The position numbers were made by a program, and so were the translations under genes. DNA of 21,893 nt, from the IMG/VR virus record IMGVR_UViG_3300035070_002684, positions 1 to 21,893 of that record. The stretch is one strand, 5' to 3'. The first letter of the stretch is position 1. Each line of letters opens with the position of its first letter. Shown here piece by piece: positions 2,534 to 11,095 of this stretch. The notes beneath the pieces were generated by a model. That model was not told the DNA's origin, made no database searches, and saw only the letters and a program-made list of their open reading frames with translations. Source of the DNA: a virus.

Positions 2534-2679
2534 AACCAAAGAAAGAGAAAGTAAAGAAAGCTATGGCTAAGGGTAAGCATGGCCTACCCCGCCAAGGCTT
2601 CAATAAAGGTAAATCTCCGACAAACAAAGATTTTACGATCATTTCCACCAGTGGCAAAGCCGATGCTAAGATACGGTAG
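2530..2679 (+). CDS. Very small basic protein, 49 residues
   Basis: A reading frame starting ATGA over the stop of the nuclease-like gene. The protein is strongly basic: MKPKKEKVKKAMAKGKHG, then a glycine/lysine-rich stretch and a polar end. No family is recognised. It could be a nucleic-acid-binding peptide. Support comes from the coupled start and continuous frame; length is too short for statistics. Its last 14 bases overlap the 3' end of the convergent minus-strand gene, and its TAG lies in a hairpin. Confidence 0.4.
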   Translation: MKPKKEKVKKAMAKGKHGLPRQGFNKGKSPTNKDFTIISTSGKADAKIR

Positions 2680-2688
2680 TATCTGCAT
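2663..2688. repeat. Inverted repeat at the convergent gene junction
   Basis: ATGC (2663-2666), a 2-base bulge, AGATAC (2669-2674), loop GGTA, then GTATCT (2679-2684) and GCAT (2685-2688) form a ten-pair bulged hairpin. It contains the stop codons of both converging genes. There is no U-tract on either side, so it is not a classic intrinsic terminator. It may block or stabilise converging transcripts. Confidence 0.45.
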
Positions 2689-2854
2689 ACTCTAAAAGTA
2701 CAGGATTTAAACCTATCTTTTCAATAAATTGCTTGTCTCTATCCGATAGATGTTTCTTGCCTAACCAGTGCGCTATCGTCTCCGCCAACTCATTAGCTGG
2801 CTTAAACTCCTGACGACCGTAGTTTCTTACTTCTATAAGCTTAACTTTGACCAC
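2666..2854 (-). CDS. Small hypothetical protein, 62 residues
   Basis: Last gene of the minus-strand cassette; not recognised. A short basic strand (VKVKLIEVRNYG) is followed by a helix (ANELAETIAHWLGKK), a second helix (SDRDKQFIEKIG) and a hydrophobic end (NPVLLEYAD). I chose the GTG at 2854 because AAAGGAG lies about 7-8 bases upstream, just before the preceding stop, leaving a 4-base gap. An ATG start at 2935 is possible but would overlap the upstream gene by 77 bases. Confidence 0.5.
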   Translation of the reverse strand: MVKVKLIEVRNYGRQEFKPANELAETIAHWLGKKHLSDRDKQFIEKIGLNPVLLEYADTTVS

Positions 2855-2858
2855 TGTC

Positions 2859-3059
2859 TTACTCCTTTCTGCTTTCTTTGTTCTCTCTGATAATGTCATA
2901 AAACATTTCGTAAAGCTTGTCGCATCGAGCTTCATGCCTTTCTGATGAAGTCTTAATTTCCTGCCTCAAGCTATTGAAGCTAGTAGCAAAGTAACCAAGA
3001 ACCCCAGTTAAATACGTGATTACTACCGCATTATCTTTAATTAATTGTGACCAATCCAT
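2859..3059 (-). CDS. Single-pass membrane protein, candidate holin
   Basis: A 66-residue protein with one clear membrane segment near the N-terminus (NAVVITYLTGVLGYFATSF, about residues 10-28). A polar, probably coiled-coil tail rich in E, R and K follows (SLRQEIKTSSERHEARCDK...). Small proteins with this plan are often phage holins or accessory lysis proteins, but membrane-anchored superinfection proteins look the same, and no endolysin gene is visible in the window. The start has AGGAG 8 bases upstream, and that SD overlaps the TAG stop of the preceding gene. The operon is therefore very tight. Confidence 0.6.
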   Translation of the reverse strand: MDWSQLIKDNAVVITYLTGVLGYFATSFNSLRQEIKTSSERHEARCDKLYEMFYDIIRENKESRKE

Positions 3060-3070
3060 CGCCTTTACTC

Positions 3071-3250
3071 CTATTCAAATATTAATAATGCACTATAACT
3101 GACCCTTCCCTCTTCGTCGGAGGTAGTATTATATTTGATATCTATAAGCTTTCTATTGCAACCTCGTTCCGCTAAAACTTTATTCACCATCTTTTGAACT
3201 TCAGTTTCAAAAAACATTTCTCCATATTGGTGTACGTGCTTAATTATCAT
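3071..3250 (-). CDS. Small protein resembling the Cse60 family
   Basis: A 59-residue protein. The segment LIDIKYNTTSDEEGRVSYSA followed by LLIFE resembles the C-terminal half of the small sporulation protein Cse60 family (pattern 'dIkys......ysAlIiY'), preceded by a helix (FFETEVQKMVNKVLAERG). Cse60-like proteins are common in phages and Firmicutes, with no firm function known. ATG 3250 is preferred, with AGGGG about 7 bases upstream. An ATG at 3265 would add five residues and overlap the upstream gene. Confidence 0.5.
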   Translation of the reverse strand: MIIKHVHQYGEMFFETEVQKMVNKVLAERGCNRKLIDIKYNTTSDEEGRVSYSALLIFE

Positions 3251-3252
3251 GG

Positions 3253-3450
3253 CTAGCCCCTGCATTTGTTTTTATACTCGATTTCATACTCGATTTCATA
3301 AGTTATAAACTCTTCAAGTGTGTTAATTGCTTCTTCCTCTGTCATTTCTAAGCGACCAATCGCTTGATTGATATCTCTCTCAAGATTAGTGTCTACAATG
3401 TCCTCGAGAAACTTTTCGGCTTGTTCTATCAACTGTTCTTTACTAAGCAT
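3253..3450 (-). CDS. Small acidic hypothetical protein, 65 residues
   Basis: An acidic, helical protein: LSKEQLIEQAEKFLEDIVD, then RDINQAIGRLEMTEEEAIN, ending in YEIEYEIEYKNK. No family is recognised. The start has a strong AAGGAG 7 bases upstream. The C-terminal YEIEYEIEY is the product of a 12-bp in-frame tandem duplication in the gene. The gene heads the four-gene run 3450 to 2666, and a stem-loop lies in its leader. Confidence 0.6.
   Translation of the reverse strand: MLSKEQLIEQAEKFLEDIVDTNLERDINQAIGRLEMTEEEAINTLEEFITYEIEYEIEYKNKCRG
3274..3300 (-). repeat. 12-bp tandem duplication inside a coding region
   Basis: The 12-base unit ATACTCGATTTC occurs at 3274-3285 and again at 3286-3297, followed by ATA. 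It is in frame and encodes a repeated acidic tetrapeptide at the protein's C-terminus. It is probably a recent slippage product. Confidence 0.7.
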
Positions 3451-3476
3451 TTTATTACTCCTTTACATAGTTTACT

Positions 3477-3501
3477 AGCAGCAACTTAAAAAGCTACTGC
3501 T
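3477..3501 (-). other. RNA stem-loop in the leader of the minus-strand cassette
   Basis: Read on the minus strand, bases 3501 to 3477 form an eleven-pair hairpin with a three-base loop: AGCAG, U, A, G, CUU pair with AAG, U, U, G, CUGCU. Two of the pairs are G-U wobbles, which on the plus strand become mismatches, so the fold fits a minus-strand transcript. It lies about 27 bases upstream of the start at 3450, beyond the ribosome site. No U-tract follows, so attenuation, processing or stability control is more likely than simple termination. Confidence 0.5.
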
Positions 3502-3537
3502 GTGAATATTGTCTAACATTTAGCTAGCTGTTTTGGC

Positions 3538-3834
3538 TTAAAATGCTTGGATTATAAAGCCGTCTGTACCGCTTAGTTCGATTACTTGCGTGTGTTCTCT
3601 TAGCGTCTCAAGGTCGGGATATTCTTCTTTGTCGTATTCCCCTTGAAACTCTTTAAGGTTCTCATACTCTGCATAATCACAGCATAAGGCGATAGGGTCT
3701 AGCTCTAACTCGATTCCCATTTCCTCCTCCATTTCTTCAATGTATTCAAACAACGCTAGCTTGCCGTCATAGCTAAAGTTTTCCCTGTCTCCAAAACTAT
3801 CTATAAAATCGTGACGTGTAACTGTATTTTTCAT
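3538..3834 (-). CDS. Conserved small acidic phage/plasmid protein, unknown function
   Basis: A 98-residue acidic protein. It starts with a short helix (TRHDFIDSF), then FSYDGKLALFEYIEEMEEE and ELDPIALCCDYAEYENLKEF, and ends with a strand pair (HTQVIELSGTDGFIIQAF). I recognise the 'NFSYEGL..LFDYLEE ... ALCC.(F/Y)..Y' pattern from small unannotated proteins on many phages and plasmids; no function is assigned to them to my knowledge. It is the first gene on the minus strand, reading away from the terminase genes. Its SD (GGAG, 7 bases from ATG) sits in a duplicated 13-bp element. Confidence 0.7.
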   Translation of the reverse strand: MKNTVTRHDFIDSFGDRENFSYDGKLALFEYIEEMEEEMGIELELDPIALCCDYAEYENLKEFQGEYDKEEYPDLETLREHTQVIELSGTDGFIIQAF

Positions 3835-4078: not shown

Positions 4079-4654
4079 ATGCCTGAGAAAAAAAAGCCTT
4101 TAACTAAAGCCAAAGCTAGGAAGGCAGTTAAGAAGGTGAAAGCTACTGGCACAGCAAAAAAGATTTCCACAGCTAGACCGCTCAAGCCTGGAGAGGGCAA
4201 CCAGAACGCAAGGAAGTGGGACAATGAGAAGCTTGAAGACTTAGCAAAGAGAATGCTTGAGAGTGTCGAAAAGGCAGATTGTTGGAGCCTATGCCAAGTG
4301 GCTAACGAGGTTGATATCCTCCCCAATTACCTGCTTGAACTCGCTAAAAGCTATGATGCTGTTTCTGGGGCATATGCGAAAGTTAAAGGAATCCTAAGCG
4401 CAAGGTACTCCTCTTTAGCTGCTTCGGGTGGAGGGCATGGAGTCTTTGTTATGAAGATGATTCCCTATTACAACAAACAATTCTATGACTTCGATCTTGC
4501 CTTGCTTGAAGCTCAAGAAGACACTAAAGCAAACGTTCGCATTAGAGAAAAGAGAGCGTTAGCCGAAAAGGTTGATGATGGTAACGGTAACGTGCTTGAC
4601 GAGTTTGACGAGTTCTTACAGTGGAAAGCTGCAAAGAAAGCTAGGAGCTTATGA
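4079..4654 (+). CDS. Terminase small subunit (putative) with histone-like basic N-terminus
   Basis: A 191-residue protein called by position directly upstream of, and overlapping (ATGA), the large terminase. Small subunits recognise phage DNA and control the packaging motor. Residues about 1-32 are a Lys/Ala tail (KKPLTKAKARKAVKKVKA) like the tails of bacterial H1-type proteins. Residues about 40-50 hold GEGNQNARKW, a motif often seen at the start of small terminases. A helical core follows (EKLEDLAKRMLESVEKADCW, VANEVDILPNYLLELAKSY), compatible with a helix-turn-helix. The C-terminus is acidic then basic (DEFDEFLQWKAAKKARSL). SD GAGGGTG directly precedes ATG 4079. The family is not certain, since small subunits diverge fast. 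Confidence 0.65.
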   Translation: MPEKKKPLTKAKARKAVKKVKATGTAKKISTARPLKPGEGNQNARKWDNEKLEDLAKRMLESVEKADCWSLCQVANEVDILPNYLLELAKSYDAVSGAYAKVKGILSARYSSLAASGGGHGVFVMKMIPYYNKQFYDFDLALLEAQEDTKANVRIREKRALAEKVDDGNGNVLDEFDEFLQWKAAKKARSL

Positions 4655-5946
4655 CTTCGACCCTATCAGACAAGCAAGAACGTGCTTACTTAGAGAGTAC
4701 AGCTAGGCAAAACCTTTTCCATGGCTCTGTTAGATCAGGGAAGACCTTCTCAAGCATCCTGCGCTTTGCTAAAGACTTAAGACACGCACCCCCTGGAGAC
4801 TTCTTAATATCTGGAGTTACAAGGGAGACGATTCAAAGAAACCTTGGTGCTGACTTCAAACGCATCACTGGCTTTGAGCTTCCCCCTGTGCATAGTAATT
4901 ACTTTAAGATATGGGGTAGAGCTGTTCACATCCTTGGAGCTTCAGACTTACAGGCAGAGCGCAAGATACAAGGCTCGACGCTAGCAGGTGCTTACGTTGA
5001 TGAAGCTGCTTTACTGCCTCATAGCTTTTACAAGATGCTCCTATCTCGACTCAGTGTAACAGGTGCTAAGCTCATTGCTACGATGAACCCACAAGGTCCA
5101 TATCACTGGATGAAAGAGAGTTACATAGATAGAGAGGACGAGCTTGACATGAAGGTCTTTCACTTCGTGCTTAACGATAACCCTAGCCTATCCGACCACT
5201 ATAAAGATAACTTGAGCAAGGAATACACAGGGCTTTGGTACAAGCGTTACATTGAGGGGCTTTGGGTTCTTGCTGAAGGTGTGGTTTATGATTGCTTCAC
5301 GGATGATAGCGTTATCTTAGCACCTCCTAGGCCAGCTCAATATCATGTAATAGGCGTAGACGTAGGCACAACCAACCCAACTTGCTTTGTGGCTATGGGC
5401 TACCATCCTGAAGGCTCTCCCCCTCTGTGGTGTGAGAAAGAGTTTTATTATAACAGCAAGAAAGAAGGAAAGACCAAGGCATACAGCGAGCTTGCAGAGG
5501 ATTTCATAGACTTCATCGAGGGCTTGAATGTTAGAGGAATTTATATAGATCCCTCAGCAGCAGCTTTTATTGCAGAGCTTAGGAAGCTAGGCGTTCAAAA
5601 CATCTATCCAGCCGATAACGACGTGCTCAACGGCATTCAGACACAATACACTTACTTGAGAGATGGAACTTATAAGGTATGCGCCAACTGTATAGAGACT
5701 AGGAGAGAGTACTCAGCTTATATCTGGGACGAAAAGCGAAGTGATAGGGGAGAGGACAAGCCAGTTAAAGAGCATGACCATACGAAGGACGCAGAGCGTT
5801 ACGCTATATATACTTTCTTTAGCAAAATACTAGGCTCACCCACTAGCAGCAAGGAAGAGTTAGACAGGCGATATAATAACTCAATGGGAAGGACAACAAA
5901 GCAGCTCCCTAAGTTTTTTCAAGACAATTCTTTCCCAATGCACTAG
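4651..5946 (+). CDS. terL: Terminase large subunit (packaging ATPase and nuclease)
   Basis: Motor that translocates DNA into the head and cuts it into genome lengths. The 431 residues are complete. Walker A is GSVRSGKT (25-32); Walker B is AGAYVDEAA with D117-E118; TMNPQGPYHW (about 145-154) is the coupling motif. The RNase H-like nuclease follows: IGVDVGTTNPT with D237, IYIDPSAA with D300, and DHTKDAERYA with D380, the three expected acidic metal ligands. Length and order match the PBSX/Terminase_3-type large subunits. It overlaps the small subunit by four bases and precedes the portal, the standard packaging order. Confidence 0.95.
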   Translation: MTSTLSDKQERAYLESTARQNLFHGSVRSGKTFSSILRFAKDLRHAPPGDFLISGVTRETIQRNLGADFKRITGFELPPVHSNYFKIWGRAVHILGASDLQAERKIQGSTLAGAYVDEAALLPHSFYKMLLSRLSVTGAKLIATMNPQGPYHWMKESYIDREDELDMKVFHFVLNDNPSLSDHYKDNLSKEYTGLWYKRYIEGLWVLAEGVVYDCFTDDSVILAPPRPAQYHVIGVDVGTTNPTCFVAMGYHPEGSPPLWCEKEFYYNSKKEGKTKAYSELAEDFIDFIEGLNVRGIYIDPSAAAFIAELRKLGVQNIYPADNDVLNGIQTQYTYLRDGTYKVCANCIETRREYSAYIWDEKRSDRGEDKPVKEHDHTKDAERYAIYTFFSKILGSPTSSKEELDRRYNNSMGRTTKQLPKFFQDNSFPMH

Positions 5947-8328: not shown

Positions 8329-8448
8329 ATGCTTCAGTGGGAAAAGCGTTTAAGAGAGTTAGAGAAATCAGCTCCTAAAGCTAAGAAGAAGCAGCCTCCT
8401 AAGAAGCCTTCTCCTATCAAAAAAGATAGGAGGGGCTATGTTGCTTGA
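8329..8448 (+). CDS. Very small basic protein, 39 residues
   Basis: Starts 3 bases after the previous stop with a GAGGT SD five bases upstream. The protein begins with an amphipathic helix (LQWEKRLRELEK) and continues into a lysine/proline-rich tail (APKAKKKQPPKKPSPIKKDRR). No family is recognised; the tail is like that of histone-H1-type or other nucleic-acid-binding tails. It overlaps the next start by 11 bases in a different frame, a coupled arrangement. Confidence 0.5.
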   Translation: MLQWEKRLRELEKSAPKAKKKQPPKKPSPIKKDRRGYVA

Positions 8449-8908
8449 TGATGTAAAGCCAACAGTTGGCGAAGAATCTTTAAAGCGAATTATGAGTGGT
8501 GACAAGCAAGAAGTTGGTGAGACTTCTGGCGCCATGAATAAGACGTATGAAGAGGAGCTGATGGAATGTGTTCATGAGTATCAGAAAAAACGCCTTGAGA
8601 ATGTAAAGCCGTTTTACGTTGTAGTTTTAGCAAAGAAAGAACGCTTAATGAAGAATGTTGTTAGACGTTACTTTTTTGGTAGAGAGTCAGAGCCTACACC
8701 TGAATATGATCAAGCTGTTTACGAGGTAAACCCTAAAGATCAACAGGTTAACTTTCAATGGCAGATTCCAGATATAGAGTCTTATCATGATATGGTATTC
8801 AATGGGCATCTATATGACATAGAGCAGCAGCAGCTTGTTTCATTTTGTAAAGCCATGCATGAAAATAGGCTTGCAAAGTTTCAGAGATTTAAAGTAATAA
8901 CTAGCTGA
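8438..8908 (+). CDS. Conserved phage hypothetical protein in the portal-scaffold interval
   Basis: A 156-residue protein. Residues about 55-150 look like a small protein that I recall between portal and scaffold in other P22/N4-like phages: KPFYVVVLAKKERLMKNVVR, RESEPTPEYDQAVYEV, FQWQIPDIESYHDMVFN, and a C-terminal helix with QQLVSFCKAMHENRLAKFQ. Its function is unknown; a structural or assembly role is likely only from position. SD AGGAGG lies directly upstream of ATG 8438. A strong terminator follows 45 bases after the stop, so this is the last gene of the packaging transcript. Confidence 0.65.
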   Translation: MLLDDVKPTVGEESLKRIMSGDKQEVGETSGAMNKTYEEELMECVHEYQKKRLENVKPFYVVVLAKKERLMKNVVRRYFFGRESEPTPEYDQAVYEVNPKDQQVNFQWQIPDIESYHDMVFNGHLYDIEQQQLVSFCKAMHENRLAKFQRFKVITS

Positions 8909-8953: not shown

Positions 8954-8985
8954 CGCTCTATTCTCCTGGGTAGAGCGTTTTTTTT
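8954..8985 (+). terminator. Strong rho-independent terminator after the packaging genes
   Basis: Perfect seven-pair stem CGCTCTA (8954-8960) and TAGAGCG (8971-8977) with a ten-base loop, followed by eight Ts (8978-8985). It works in the plus direction only. The convergent HTH gene's stop codon (8984-8986) lies at the end of the T-run. Confidence 0.9.
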
Positions 8986-9202
8986 ATTGAATCCTTTCCG
9001 AAAGCCACTCTATCAATAGATTCTTTGGATAGACAACTTTCCTAGTCCCCATTCTTACCCTTGGTGGACAGCATCCCCTTTTGAACTCATGGCATATATT
9101 AGATGGGGAATTGAACAGCCCTAGCTTGATCAAATCCCTTGATGTTAAAAAATCGGGGATATTCTTAAGAGATTCCTCTATAGATTCTTTATTTGAATAC
9201 AT
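8984..9202 (-). CDS. Winged-helix/HTH DNA-binding protein (AlpA/excisionase-like)
   Basis: A 72-residue putative transcription regulator. The pattern FLTSRDLIKLGLFNSPSNIC (about 18-37) is a helix-turn-helix opening, followed by HEFKRGCCPPRVRMGTRKVV and YPKNLLIEWL, the wing and last helix typical of MerR/AlpA/excisionase-like small HTH proteins ('..G..P....iG.R.v.y...dl..WL'). It is oriented against the structural genes on both sides. SD AAAGGA lies about 5 bases upstream of the ATG. Its start faces a promoter region with a 16-bp palindrome, so it probably controls itself and/or the capsid genes. It could instead be an excisionase-type DNA-bending protein. Confidence 0.7.
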   Translation of the reverse strand: MYSNKESIEESLKNIPDFLTSRDLIKLGLFNSPSNICHEFKRGCCPPRVRMGTRKVVYPKNLLIEWLSERIQ

Positions 9203-9314
9203 TTATTTTCCTTTGTTTTCTTCTGTAAACTATATATTTCAAAACCTAACGATATTGTTGTCATATTAACATTTCTAGGTGAGAGAAGTCTATTATTTTA
9301 TGGCTAATTTCTTT

Positions 9315-9344
9315 TTGACAAAATTGTTTACTAGCTAGTAAATT
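9315..9344 (+). promoter_or_regulatory. Candidate promoter for the scaffold-capsid transcript
   Basis: Perfect -35 TTGACA (9315-9320) with a candidate -10 TAAATT (9339-9344, 18-base spacer; four of six matches). Transcription would run into the scaffold gene at 9414. The placement after the terminator at 8954-8985 makes a promoter here necessary for high capsid expression unless transcription reads through. Confidence 0.55.
9327..9342. promoter_or_regulatory. Perfect 16-bp palindrome, candidate operator
   Basis: TTTACTAGCTAGTAAA is a perfect inverted repeat lying between the TTGACA and the -10 of the scaffold promoter. A repressor bound here would block RNA polymerase. The half-site TTTACTAG recurs at 3471-3478 in the leader of the minus-strand cassette. 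The divergent HTH protein is the obvious candidate ligand, but this is inference. Confidence 0.55.
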
Positions 9345-9413
9345 CAAATTGATTCTAGCAATGTTAGGGTCAGTGCTGTAACTGGACTCGCAATCCAAAT
9401 AATGAGGTTTTTA

Positions 9414-10127
9414 ATGTCAGAAGTAGAAGAAACGGTTGTAGAAGAGGGAATCGCCACCCCTGAAGCTGAAACATTAAACGCACAACTAGATGCAGGAACT
9501 TATGAAGAGCCCGTTGCACCTGAGGAAAACCCTCAAGACCGCAATTGGAAACAAGTAAGGGAACGTATCGAAGAGTTAGAACGCTCTAATAATCAATTGT
9601 CGAACGCAGTAAAGCAGCAGCATTCTAAACCTACGATGGAAGAATCTCTTCCCGACTGGGCGAATGTTGATGATGAGGATTTGCTTACTAAGAAGCAGAC
9701 TATGGGAGTTGCCGAGAAGGTAGCTGCTGAAGCTGTTAGAAAAGCTCTCCAGCAAAGAGAGTATGAGCAAGCCCCCAAGCTTATTGAAGATCAGATGAAA
9801 GACTATAACAGCGTTGTGACTCCTGAAAATGTTGAACGATTAAAACAAACGAACCCACGTTTGGCAGCGAGTTTAGGGGATGTAAAAGATCCCTATGCAC
9901 AAGGAGCTTTGGCTTACTCTTATATTAAGTCTCAAGGGATTTATAAAGAGAGTGATGAAGTTGGTAATCGACAAAGGGCATTAGCTAACGCTAAGAAGCC
10001 TTTGCCAGTATCAGCAGCTAAGCCAAGTAATGCGTTGGAATCAGCAAATGCTTATGCCAATGGTCTTACTCCCGAAGTTAAGAAACAACTTTTTGCGGAG
10101 ATGCAAGCTGCCATCAGAAAGGGTTAA
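9414..10127 (+). CDS. Capsid scaffolding protein (putative)
   Basis: A 237-residue, highly charged, helical protein immediately upstream of the coat protein, the usual scaffold position. The N-terminal 45 residues are acidic (EVEETVVEEG, EEPVAPEENPQD). A helix with coiled-coil character (QVRERIEELERSNNQLSNAV, about 48-67) follows, then a helical middle and a C-terminal amphipathic helix (TPEVKKQLFAEMQAAIRKG) that could contact the coat protein. ATG 9414 is preferred because GAGG lies six bases upstream; ATG 9402 would put the SD inside the gene. Scaffold sequences are poorly conserved, so the call rests on composition and position. Confidence 0.75.
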   Translation: MSEVEETVVEEGIATPEAETLNAQLDAGTYEEPVAPEENPQDRNWKQVRERIEELERSNNQLSNAVKQQHSKPTMEESLPDWANVDDEDLLTKKQTMGVAEKVAAEAVRKALQQREYEQAPKLIEDQMKDYNSVVTPENVERLKQTNPRLAASLGDVKDPYAQGALAYSYIKSQGIYKESDEVGNRQRALANAKKPLPVSAAKPSNALESANAYANGLTPEVKKQLFAEMQAAIRKG

Positions 10128-10147: not shown

Positions 10148-11095
10148 ATGACCACTACTTCCAGTGTTCTACCGGCTCCAGTGCAGCAAAGTTTTGATAT
10201 GAAACTTTTGTCTGTGCCTACACCTAATTTTATTCATAAGATCCCTGCGATGCTTAAGAATATGCCAGCTAACGGTGGTACTACACTCCGTATGCGTAGG
10301 TATAATGCTTTAGCTTCTGCAACGGTACCTTTGGGGAATAGTGGTATTCATCCACCTCCTCAACAGCTAACAGCAGTCAATATTGACGCTGACATGGATT
10401 TCTACGGTACTTATGTACTTTTAAACGAACAAGTTACACTTCAGTCTCAAGACCCTGTTTTGAATGAAGCTGCTCGTCGTCTAGGAGTTTCTTTAAGACA
10501 AACCGAGGACGAATTATCCAGAAATATGCTCCAGTCAACCAGTAGTTTCATAAACGGTGTCGCAGGTACTAACGGCGATAATCCGACTGAGGCTGCTCGT
10601 GCCGACATGGACGTTATTATTCGTACTCTTGCTGGTGCTGACTGCATGACTATCGCAGACAACATCGAGGGCGAGGATAAATTTGGAACGGCTCCTGTAC
10701 GTGACGCCTATTTTGCACTAGGAAGCACTGATTTAATCGGTGACTTAGAGCAAGTAAATGGTTTCATTGCTAAGGCTCAATACCCATCACAAATGAACGT
10801 TCTTCGTTCTGAGTGGGGTTCTGTTTCTAACTTGAGATTCCTTCTTTCATCTGCTGGTTCTGTAAGTTCCGGTGCTTCGATGAATGCTGCTGATGTTTAC
10901 AACATCTTTTGCGTAGGAATGGAAGCTTATTGCTCTGTAGAGCAAGACGGTTACTCAGCTCAATTCATCTATAGACCACCTATTTACGATGGTCCTTTAG
11001 CTCTGAATGCTTCTGCTGGTTACAAGTTCGGAGAAGTGCCACGTATCACCAACGATGCTTGGGTTATTAACTATCGTGTAACCCTATCAGTTTAA
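10148..11095 (+). CDS. Major capsid protein, N4-gp56 family
   Basis: Main shell protein with the HK97 fold. The 315 residues match the N4-gp56-type pattern: an early ML..MPANGGTTLRMRRYN (about 35-53), ATVPLGNSGIHPPPQQLT, then YGTYVLLNEQVTLQSQDP (about 86-103), a helical spine with RLGVSLRQTEDELSRN, VRDAYFALGSTDLIGDLEQV (about 183-202), and SEWGSVSNLRFLLSS (about 221-235), which is a family hallmark. SD GAGGT precedes the start. It follows scaffold and precedes a two-repeat capsid-adjacent protein. There is no sign of a protease domain or a cleaved N-terminal extension. Confidence 0.88.
   Translation: MTTTSSVLPAPVQQSFDMKLLSVPTPNFIHKIPAMLKNMPANGGTTLRMRRYNALASATVPLGNSGIHPPPQQLTAVNIDADMDFYGTYVLLNEQVTLQSQDPVLNEAARRLGVSLRQTEDELSRNMLQSTSSFINGVAGTNGDNPTEAARADMDVIIRTLAGADCMTIADNIEGEDKFGTAPVRDAYFALGSTDLIGDLEQVNGFIAKAQYPSQMNVLRSEWGSVSNLRFLLSSAGSVSSGASMNAADVYNIFCVGMEAYCSVEQDGYSAQFIYRPPIYDGPLALNASAGYKFGEVPRITNDAWVINYRVTLSV

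Follow-up and report, generated by a model that had tools for sequence, protein, structure and literature searches.

A reverse-oriented winged-helix gene and predicted leader pseudoknots at the boundary between packaging and capsid genes in uncultivated phages with P22-like portals

The ratio of capsid to scaffold protein must be right in a phage, and the way in which phages set this ratio is known in few systems. The scaffolding protein of P22 is autoregulated, and control is known to be exerted at scaffold expression. Morons of tailed phages are extra genes that lie between two genes adjoining each other in a relative and have a promoter and a terminator of their own. At the RNA level, the mRNA of T4 gene 32 carries a pseudoknot operator, an RNA structure located upstream of a phage translation start (PMC535899, PMC3014915). 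At the DNA level, Apl of coliphage 186 and related winged helix-turn-helix (wHTH) proteins acting as recombination directionality factors or regulators are very small excisionase-type DNA-binding proteins; the site of action of Apl lies near opposed promoters and consists of direct repeats 10–11 bp apart (PMC7498355). BldC, a bacterial developmental regulator of about 70 residues, is a wHTH domain only, MerR-like, with neither a coiled coil nor a dimerisation domain, and recognizes AATT-type direct repeats (PMC5859096). Binding to direct repeats is cooperative for both BldC and Apl (PMC5859096, PMC7498355). TnrA and GlnR, MerR-like wHTH proteins also devoid of a coiled coil, dimerise via N-terminal residues and bind as homodimers (PMC5859096).

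The window analyzed here, a partial viral genome of 21,893 bp, is the entire IMG/VR record IMGVR_UViG_3300035070_002684. Terminase, a P22-like portal protein (PF16510, E 1e-72), scaffold, and a major capsid protein (MCP) of phrog_1357 were encoded in it according to Pfam and PHROGs. The final gene of the packaging-side transcript was the small gene “pre” (8438–8908, plus strand), which follows the portal gene and lies upstream of the scaffold gene in most relatives. A preliminary description of this DNA had a terminator closing this transcript, and an intrinsic terminator (stem of 10 pairs, tail of 8 T) was indeed present at 8954–8977 (plus strand). The scaffold promoter TTGACA-18-TAAATT was located at 9315–9344 (plus strand; −35 at 9315–9320, −10 at 9339–9344). 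It was followed by the scaffold gene (9414–10127, plus strand), a homolog of which precedes the MCP gene in the majority of 80 relatives, and by the MCP gene itself (10148–11095, plus strand; E 6.7e-26). ATG 9414 is more likely the scaffold start than ATG 9402, because positions 9402–9407 overlap the SD sequence GAGG. A cassette of small minus-strand genes was located upstream of the terminase gene (2666–3834); among the genes of the cassette tested, only that at 3538–3834 had a family match (phrog_9974, function unknown).

The small wHTH gene running backwards between the terminator and the scaffold promoter, another element of the preliminary description, was found as an ORF of 72 codons at 8984–9202 (minus strand) with a purine-rich ribosome-binding site. 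Judged by its homologs, this ORF is a real gene, because proteins with 34–36% identity were retrieved with E values that ranged, according to the search used, from 1e-8 to 1e-13. They were encoded in four related phage contigs: L099 (36%), L100 (34%), L101 (36%), and L102, where the homolog is a 206-aa protein with two domains. These four loci were recovered using a three-sequence alignment as the query; a scan of viral contigs with the single window protein gave no homolog. We failed to find homologs in GTDB genomes, and the window protein had no significant match in Pfam, PHROGs, PDB sequences, or annotated phages. In particular, it did not match Pfam HTH_17, with which the homolog L097 scored 13.7 bits, below the cut-off of 27. 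Repeats of the GGATCC/GATCCGACAGG type were seen immediately upstream of the HTH homolog in L100 (4770–4880).

The AlphaFold2 model of the protein (pLDDT 83) was a MerR-like winged helix with an N-terminal helix, HTH helices at residues 21–26 and 33–41, a wing at 49–59, and a further helix at 60–71. According to AlphaFold2 and Foldseek, the protein is a single MerR-like wHTH domain without a dimerisation coiled coil, in a class with a range of about 60–90 aa. The best PDB match was GIsul2 excisionase (probability 1.00, TM 0.63), followed by RdfS, with BldC also near; all three matches had high probability but weak E-values. Viral Foldseek matches carried the names AlpA, excisionase, and PrtN, with E 5.8e-4 for viral AlpA. 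These models support a genuine small wHTH DNA-binding protein with a predicted fold of the AlpA/Xis/BldC class. It thus resembles Apl in fold class and very small size, and BldC in its length of about 70 residues, its single wHTH domain, and its lack of a coiled coil. The locus likewise has putative opposed promoters: a candidate promoter of the HTH gene, TTGTCA-18-AATAAT (9292–9321, minus strand), has a −35 that overlaps the scaffold −35 on the opposite strand; it matches the consensus at 10/12 positions and does not exceed what shuffles of the region give (3.4). Unlike Apl, the window gene is located in a head module, and the window has a palindrome and no direct repeats: none of at least 8 nt were found at 9180–9420, a search that weak repeats would escape.

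This arrangement was compared with that of the closest relative, L002 (MCP 95% and scaffold 80% identical). In the equivalent gap, L002 had a terminator of different sequence, the −35 block, and a normally spaced −10, followed by the scaffold gene; the HTH gene and the palindrome were both missing. The 16-nt neighbourhood of the scaffold −35 (TCTTTTTGACAAAATT) was identical in the two phages; the promoter of L002 has a spacing of 17 and the −10 TACATT, versus 18 and TAAATT in the window. The gap is 183 bp long in L002 without the HTH gene and 493 bp in the window with it. L109 looked like L002, having the terminator and the promoter and no HTH gene. Because the terminator–promoter–scaffold layout exists in L002 without the HTH gene, the scaffold promoter is independent of the regulator, and the simplest reading is that it also predates it. 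The proposal that the regulator was placed there to time capsid production fits poorly with L002 and L109, and also with L099, where the HTH homolog is encoded in the gap on the plus strand, its start overlapping the stop of the preceding reading frame.

Two further homologs were located at other head-module sites, beside the terminase gene in L101 and upstream of the portal gene in L100. Unrelated ORFs of 88, 100, 68, and 119 aa occupied the gap in L012, L018, L056, and L076, respectively; in other relatives it was empty or contained unrelated ORFs in either orientation. As far as these sequences tell, the gap is a hot spot for accessory genes. The varied gap content, the scattered sites of the homologs, and the lack of palindromes near them support the HTH gene being an ordinary mobile accessory gene, moron-like and inserted in reverse. 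The idea of a moron, raised in the preliminary description, agrees with the position of the gene between two genes adjacent in L002, with its opposite orientation, and with its own candidate promoter. The difference from morons is that no terminator-like site was found on the minus strand near 8984.

A perfect 16-bp palindrome, TTTACTAGCTAGTAAA, was present at 9327–9342, as had been described; it is not confined to the region between the −35 and the −10 of the scaffold promoter, since it extends over the initial 4 nt of the best −10. It is the sole perfect palindrome of at least 14 bp in the window. Under a first-order Markov model, 0.49 perfect palindromes of 16 bp or longer are expected per window, and the 80 related loci, 749 kb in all, contained 27 (0.79 per 21.9 kb). 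The exact 16-mer occurred in 14 other IMG/VR contigs, in none of which a convincing HTH homolog was found, and because of this the palindrome looks like background. The half-site TTTACTAG also recurred as described, isolated at 3471–3478 (plus strand) ahead of the minus-strand cassette; its proposed link with the HTH system is attributed to chance (the window has four matches, two contributed by the palindrome, and 1.3 were expected). Clustering of CTAG around the promoter was considered and rejected (P 0.59).

A classic repressor–operator pair, in which an HTH dimer would sit on the palindrome over the scaffold −10, shut off the capsid genes early, and perhaps tune its own divergent promoter, is an unlikely explanation of the locus. 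The dyad does overlap the −10 and the spacer of the promoter it would control, the probability of such a palindrome within the 199-bp gap between the HTH and scaffold genes is low (P = 0.007, for a gap picked after the palindrome was seen), and the homodimers of TnrA and GlnR formed via N-terminal residues (PMC5859096) offer a precedent for a protein with a predicted N-terminal helix. Yet palindromes this long are expected about once per window, no perfect palindrome of at least 14 bp was found within 500 bp of the four other HTH homologs, and the nearest folds, those of excisionases and BldC, bind direct repeats (PMC5859096, PMC7498355). The check suggested earlier, whether relatives lose the gene and the palindrome together, came out positive in L002; this co-absence is a single case, and promoter spacers diverge freely. 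The palindrome as an operator of the HTH protein is therefore suggestive and unproven, and may well be due to chance. It is rather more plausible, while still doubtful, that the HTH protein takes no part in capsid control, being a moron or a protein of the recombination-directionality type, and that the palindrome is unrelated to the gene. The GIsul2 excisionase and RdfS matches, the homologs scattered over several sites in both orientations, and the chance-level palindrome agree with this. Against it, the HTH gene starts about 113 bp from the scaffold promoter and may share a −35 box with it, which makes an effect of the protein on that promoter likely. The case calls for caution: a palindrome beside a regulator resembles an operator, yet the closest relative indicates that the promoter came first.

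The mRNA leader of the scaffold gene was particularly analyzed. The scaffold leaders of the window's clade had very different sequences and a common shape. Their 3′ part was computed to form an H-type pseudoknot with the order stem 1, loop, stem 2, short loop, stem 1′, usually A, and stem 2′. In the window, RNA folding gave a first hairpin at 9348–9374 (plus strand), a shortened form of the P1/P2 element of the clade, followed by the predicted pseudoknot unit UGC.UGUAAC.UGGA.CUC.GCA.A.UCCA (9374–9397, plus strand), located 40 nt ahead of the scaffold start codon, with the position and features seen in the clade leaders. Nine of the 14 clade leaders contained an exact unit, positioned at −33 to −40 relative to the start codon (0.94 in shuffles), with stem-1 and stem-2 sequences differing among the leaders; such a unit was missing in the other five. 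The window copy fits a relaxed definition, the background of which is near one per kb, and its membership therefore rests on position and homology.

A covariance model of four leaders (R1) located the leader of L002 with E 3e-5 among 628 kb. The second model (R2), with L002 included, was run unfiltered on eight further sources, and its top match fell on the scaffold leader in seven of them, although the scores were modest (E 0.002 to 0.69). The window was among the seven; its leader is shortened, and its best match (9349–9403, 13.6 bits, E 0.52) was weak. The covariation score of the five leaders was 0.535 versus 0.207 in shuffled alignments (0/500) and 0.07–0.16 with the structure slid; the alignment had been fitted to the structure, which favours this score. 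Single-sequence folding energies of the leaders were unremarkable (z −1.7 to 0.8). RNAalifold found no consensus structure in the MAFFT alignment of all 14 leaders, which itself failed as an alignment. A test of own versus cross pairing of the leader stems was set aside, since the strands had been picked by eye. No family of Rfam 15 matched the leader element at the gathering score; matches far below the threshold (E 1.8–3.6) were recorded for the L019 and window leaders.

The scaffold gene of most other relatives came directly after the gene upstream of it, and similar pseudoknot units, often in tandem, were located before the MCP gene. Five such units were found in L019 (about 5796–5920), for example GGCG.UAU.UGGAC.CU.CGCC.A.GUCCA; tandem arrays 50–330 nt upstream of the MCP gene were also present in L023, L067, L077, L080, L195, L201, L211, and others. 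At sites selected by sequence anchors, with no pairing requirement, the outer stem-1 positions paired in 188 of 258 cases versus 123 on average and at most 145 in 5000 shuffles, and the mean length of stem 2 was 3.81 versus 2.67 in shuffles. In a fixed-offset test, stem-2 pairs 2–4 were above all shuffles and the outer pairs were not, because the offset of the stem varies. Upstream of MCP genes (28 kb), the strict pattern had 80 matches; the remaining 791 kb of the plus strand had 4 (2.8 versus 0.005 per kb), and the minus strand had 6 in 820 kb. At least one strict unit was present in 45 of 69 MCP leaders. Applied unchanged to 30 contigs that had not been used for the definition, the pattern gave 37 matches in 17 contigs versus 0.06 in shuffled sequences and one match on the minus strand; since these contigs are related to those of the first set, the check is held-out rather than fully independent. 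Of the ten other matches in the held-out set, six were located about 800–900 nt upstream of the MCP gene. Strict units of L200 (−868, −829) and of L220 and L221 (−876, −809 from the MCP gene) are perhaps pre-scaffold units or were displaced by an inserted gene.

It is very improbable that the leader hairpins lack a specific knotted fold and are no more than terminator debris or generic stems with a stabilising effect. The unremarkable folding energies and the lack of a consensus from MAFFT and RNAalifold alone would agree with such stems; on the other side, covariation of both stems of the unit exceeds that of shuffles, and the several hundred-fold, strand-specific enrichment also held on contigs outside the definition set. 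The conserved element of the region, to judge from these comparisons, is a small knotted RNA, often in tandem, which appears to be undescribed; no description of pseudoknot arrays in capsid leaders was found in the open literature searched. The computed element is like the T4 gene 32 operator in its place upstream of a phage translation start and differs from it in sequence, in its tandem arrays, in the genes concerned (scaffold and capsid), and in having no known binding protein. The window phage belongs to the P22-like portal group; we saw no sign that the scaffold protein binds the leader. We regard it as fairly probable that the tandem pseudoknots of capsid and scaffold leaders represent a new RNA family of a large uncultivated phage group with P22-like portals, setting capsid dosage as a translational operator or stabiliser, the window retaining a reduced single unit. 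A covarying pseudoknot unit in up to five copies before the capsid gene in dozens of contigs is a concrete, testable element.

The boundary, the inserted wHTH gene, and the covarying pseudoknot leader are established by computation. Taken together, they probably reflect an ancestral boundary between packaging and capsid genes, made up of a terminator, then the scaffold promoter, then a structured mRNA leader, into which a wHTH gene of the AlpA/Xis/BldC class would have entered in reverse as an accessory gene. Under this reading, the synthesis of capsid and scaffold proteins would be set mainly post-transcriptionally via the leader, which, lying just upstream of the ribosome-binding site, would most simply act as a translational operator or mRNA protector. 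Since the candidate promoters share the −35 region, the HTH protein may also influence scaffold transcription; it probably modulates the overlapping divergent promoters through cooperative binding, to which the palindrome, as a putative HTH site, may contribute.

Several features of the head modules of relatives were recorded in addition. In L017, a possible HNH-type endonuclease gene (4504–5067, recognized by eye) was located among the head-module genes, and the “pre” gene was on the opposite strand. The MCP gene of L106 (3821–5898) was split by about 1.1 kb containing a 299-aa ORF on the opposite strand with LAGLIDADG-like motifs (YTAGYIDGDGCF), which resembles an intron with a homing endonuclease; L100 (429–962 plus 112–339) and L231 (MCP match 228 bp too long) looked similar. 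L106 (PLSG01000101.1), a 6.5-kb contig in a Parachlamydiaceae MAG, was also the sole GTDB match to the MCP, weakly suggesting either that chlamydiae are hosts of this phage group or that binning brought a phage contig into this MAG.
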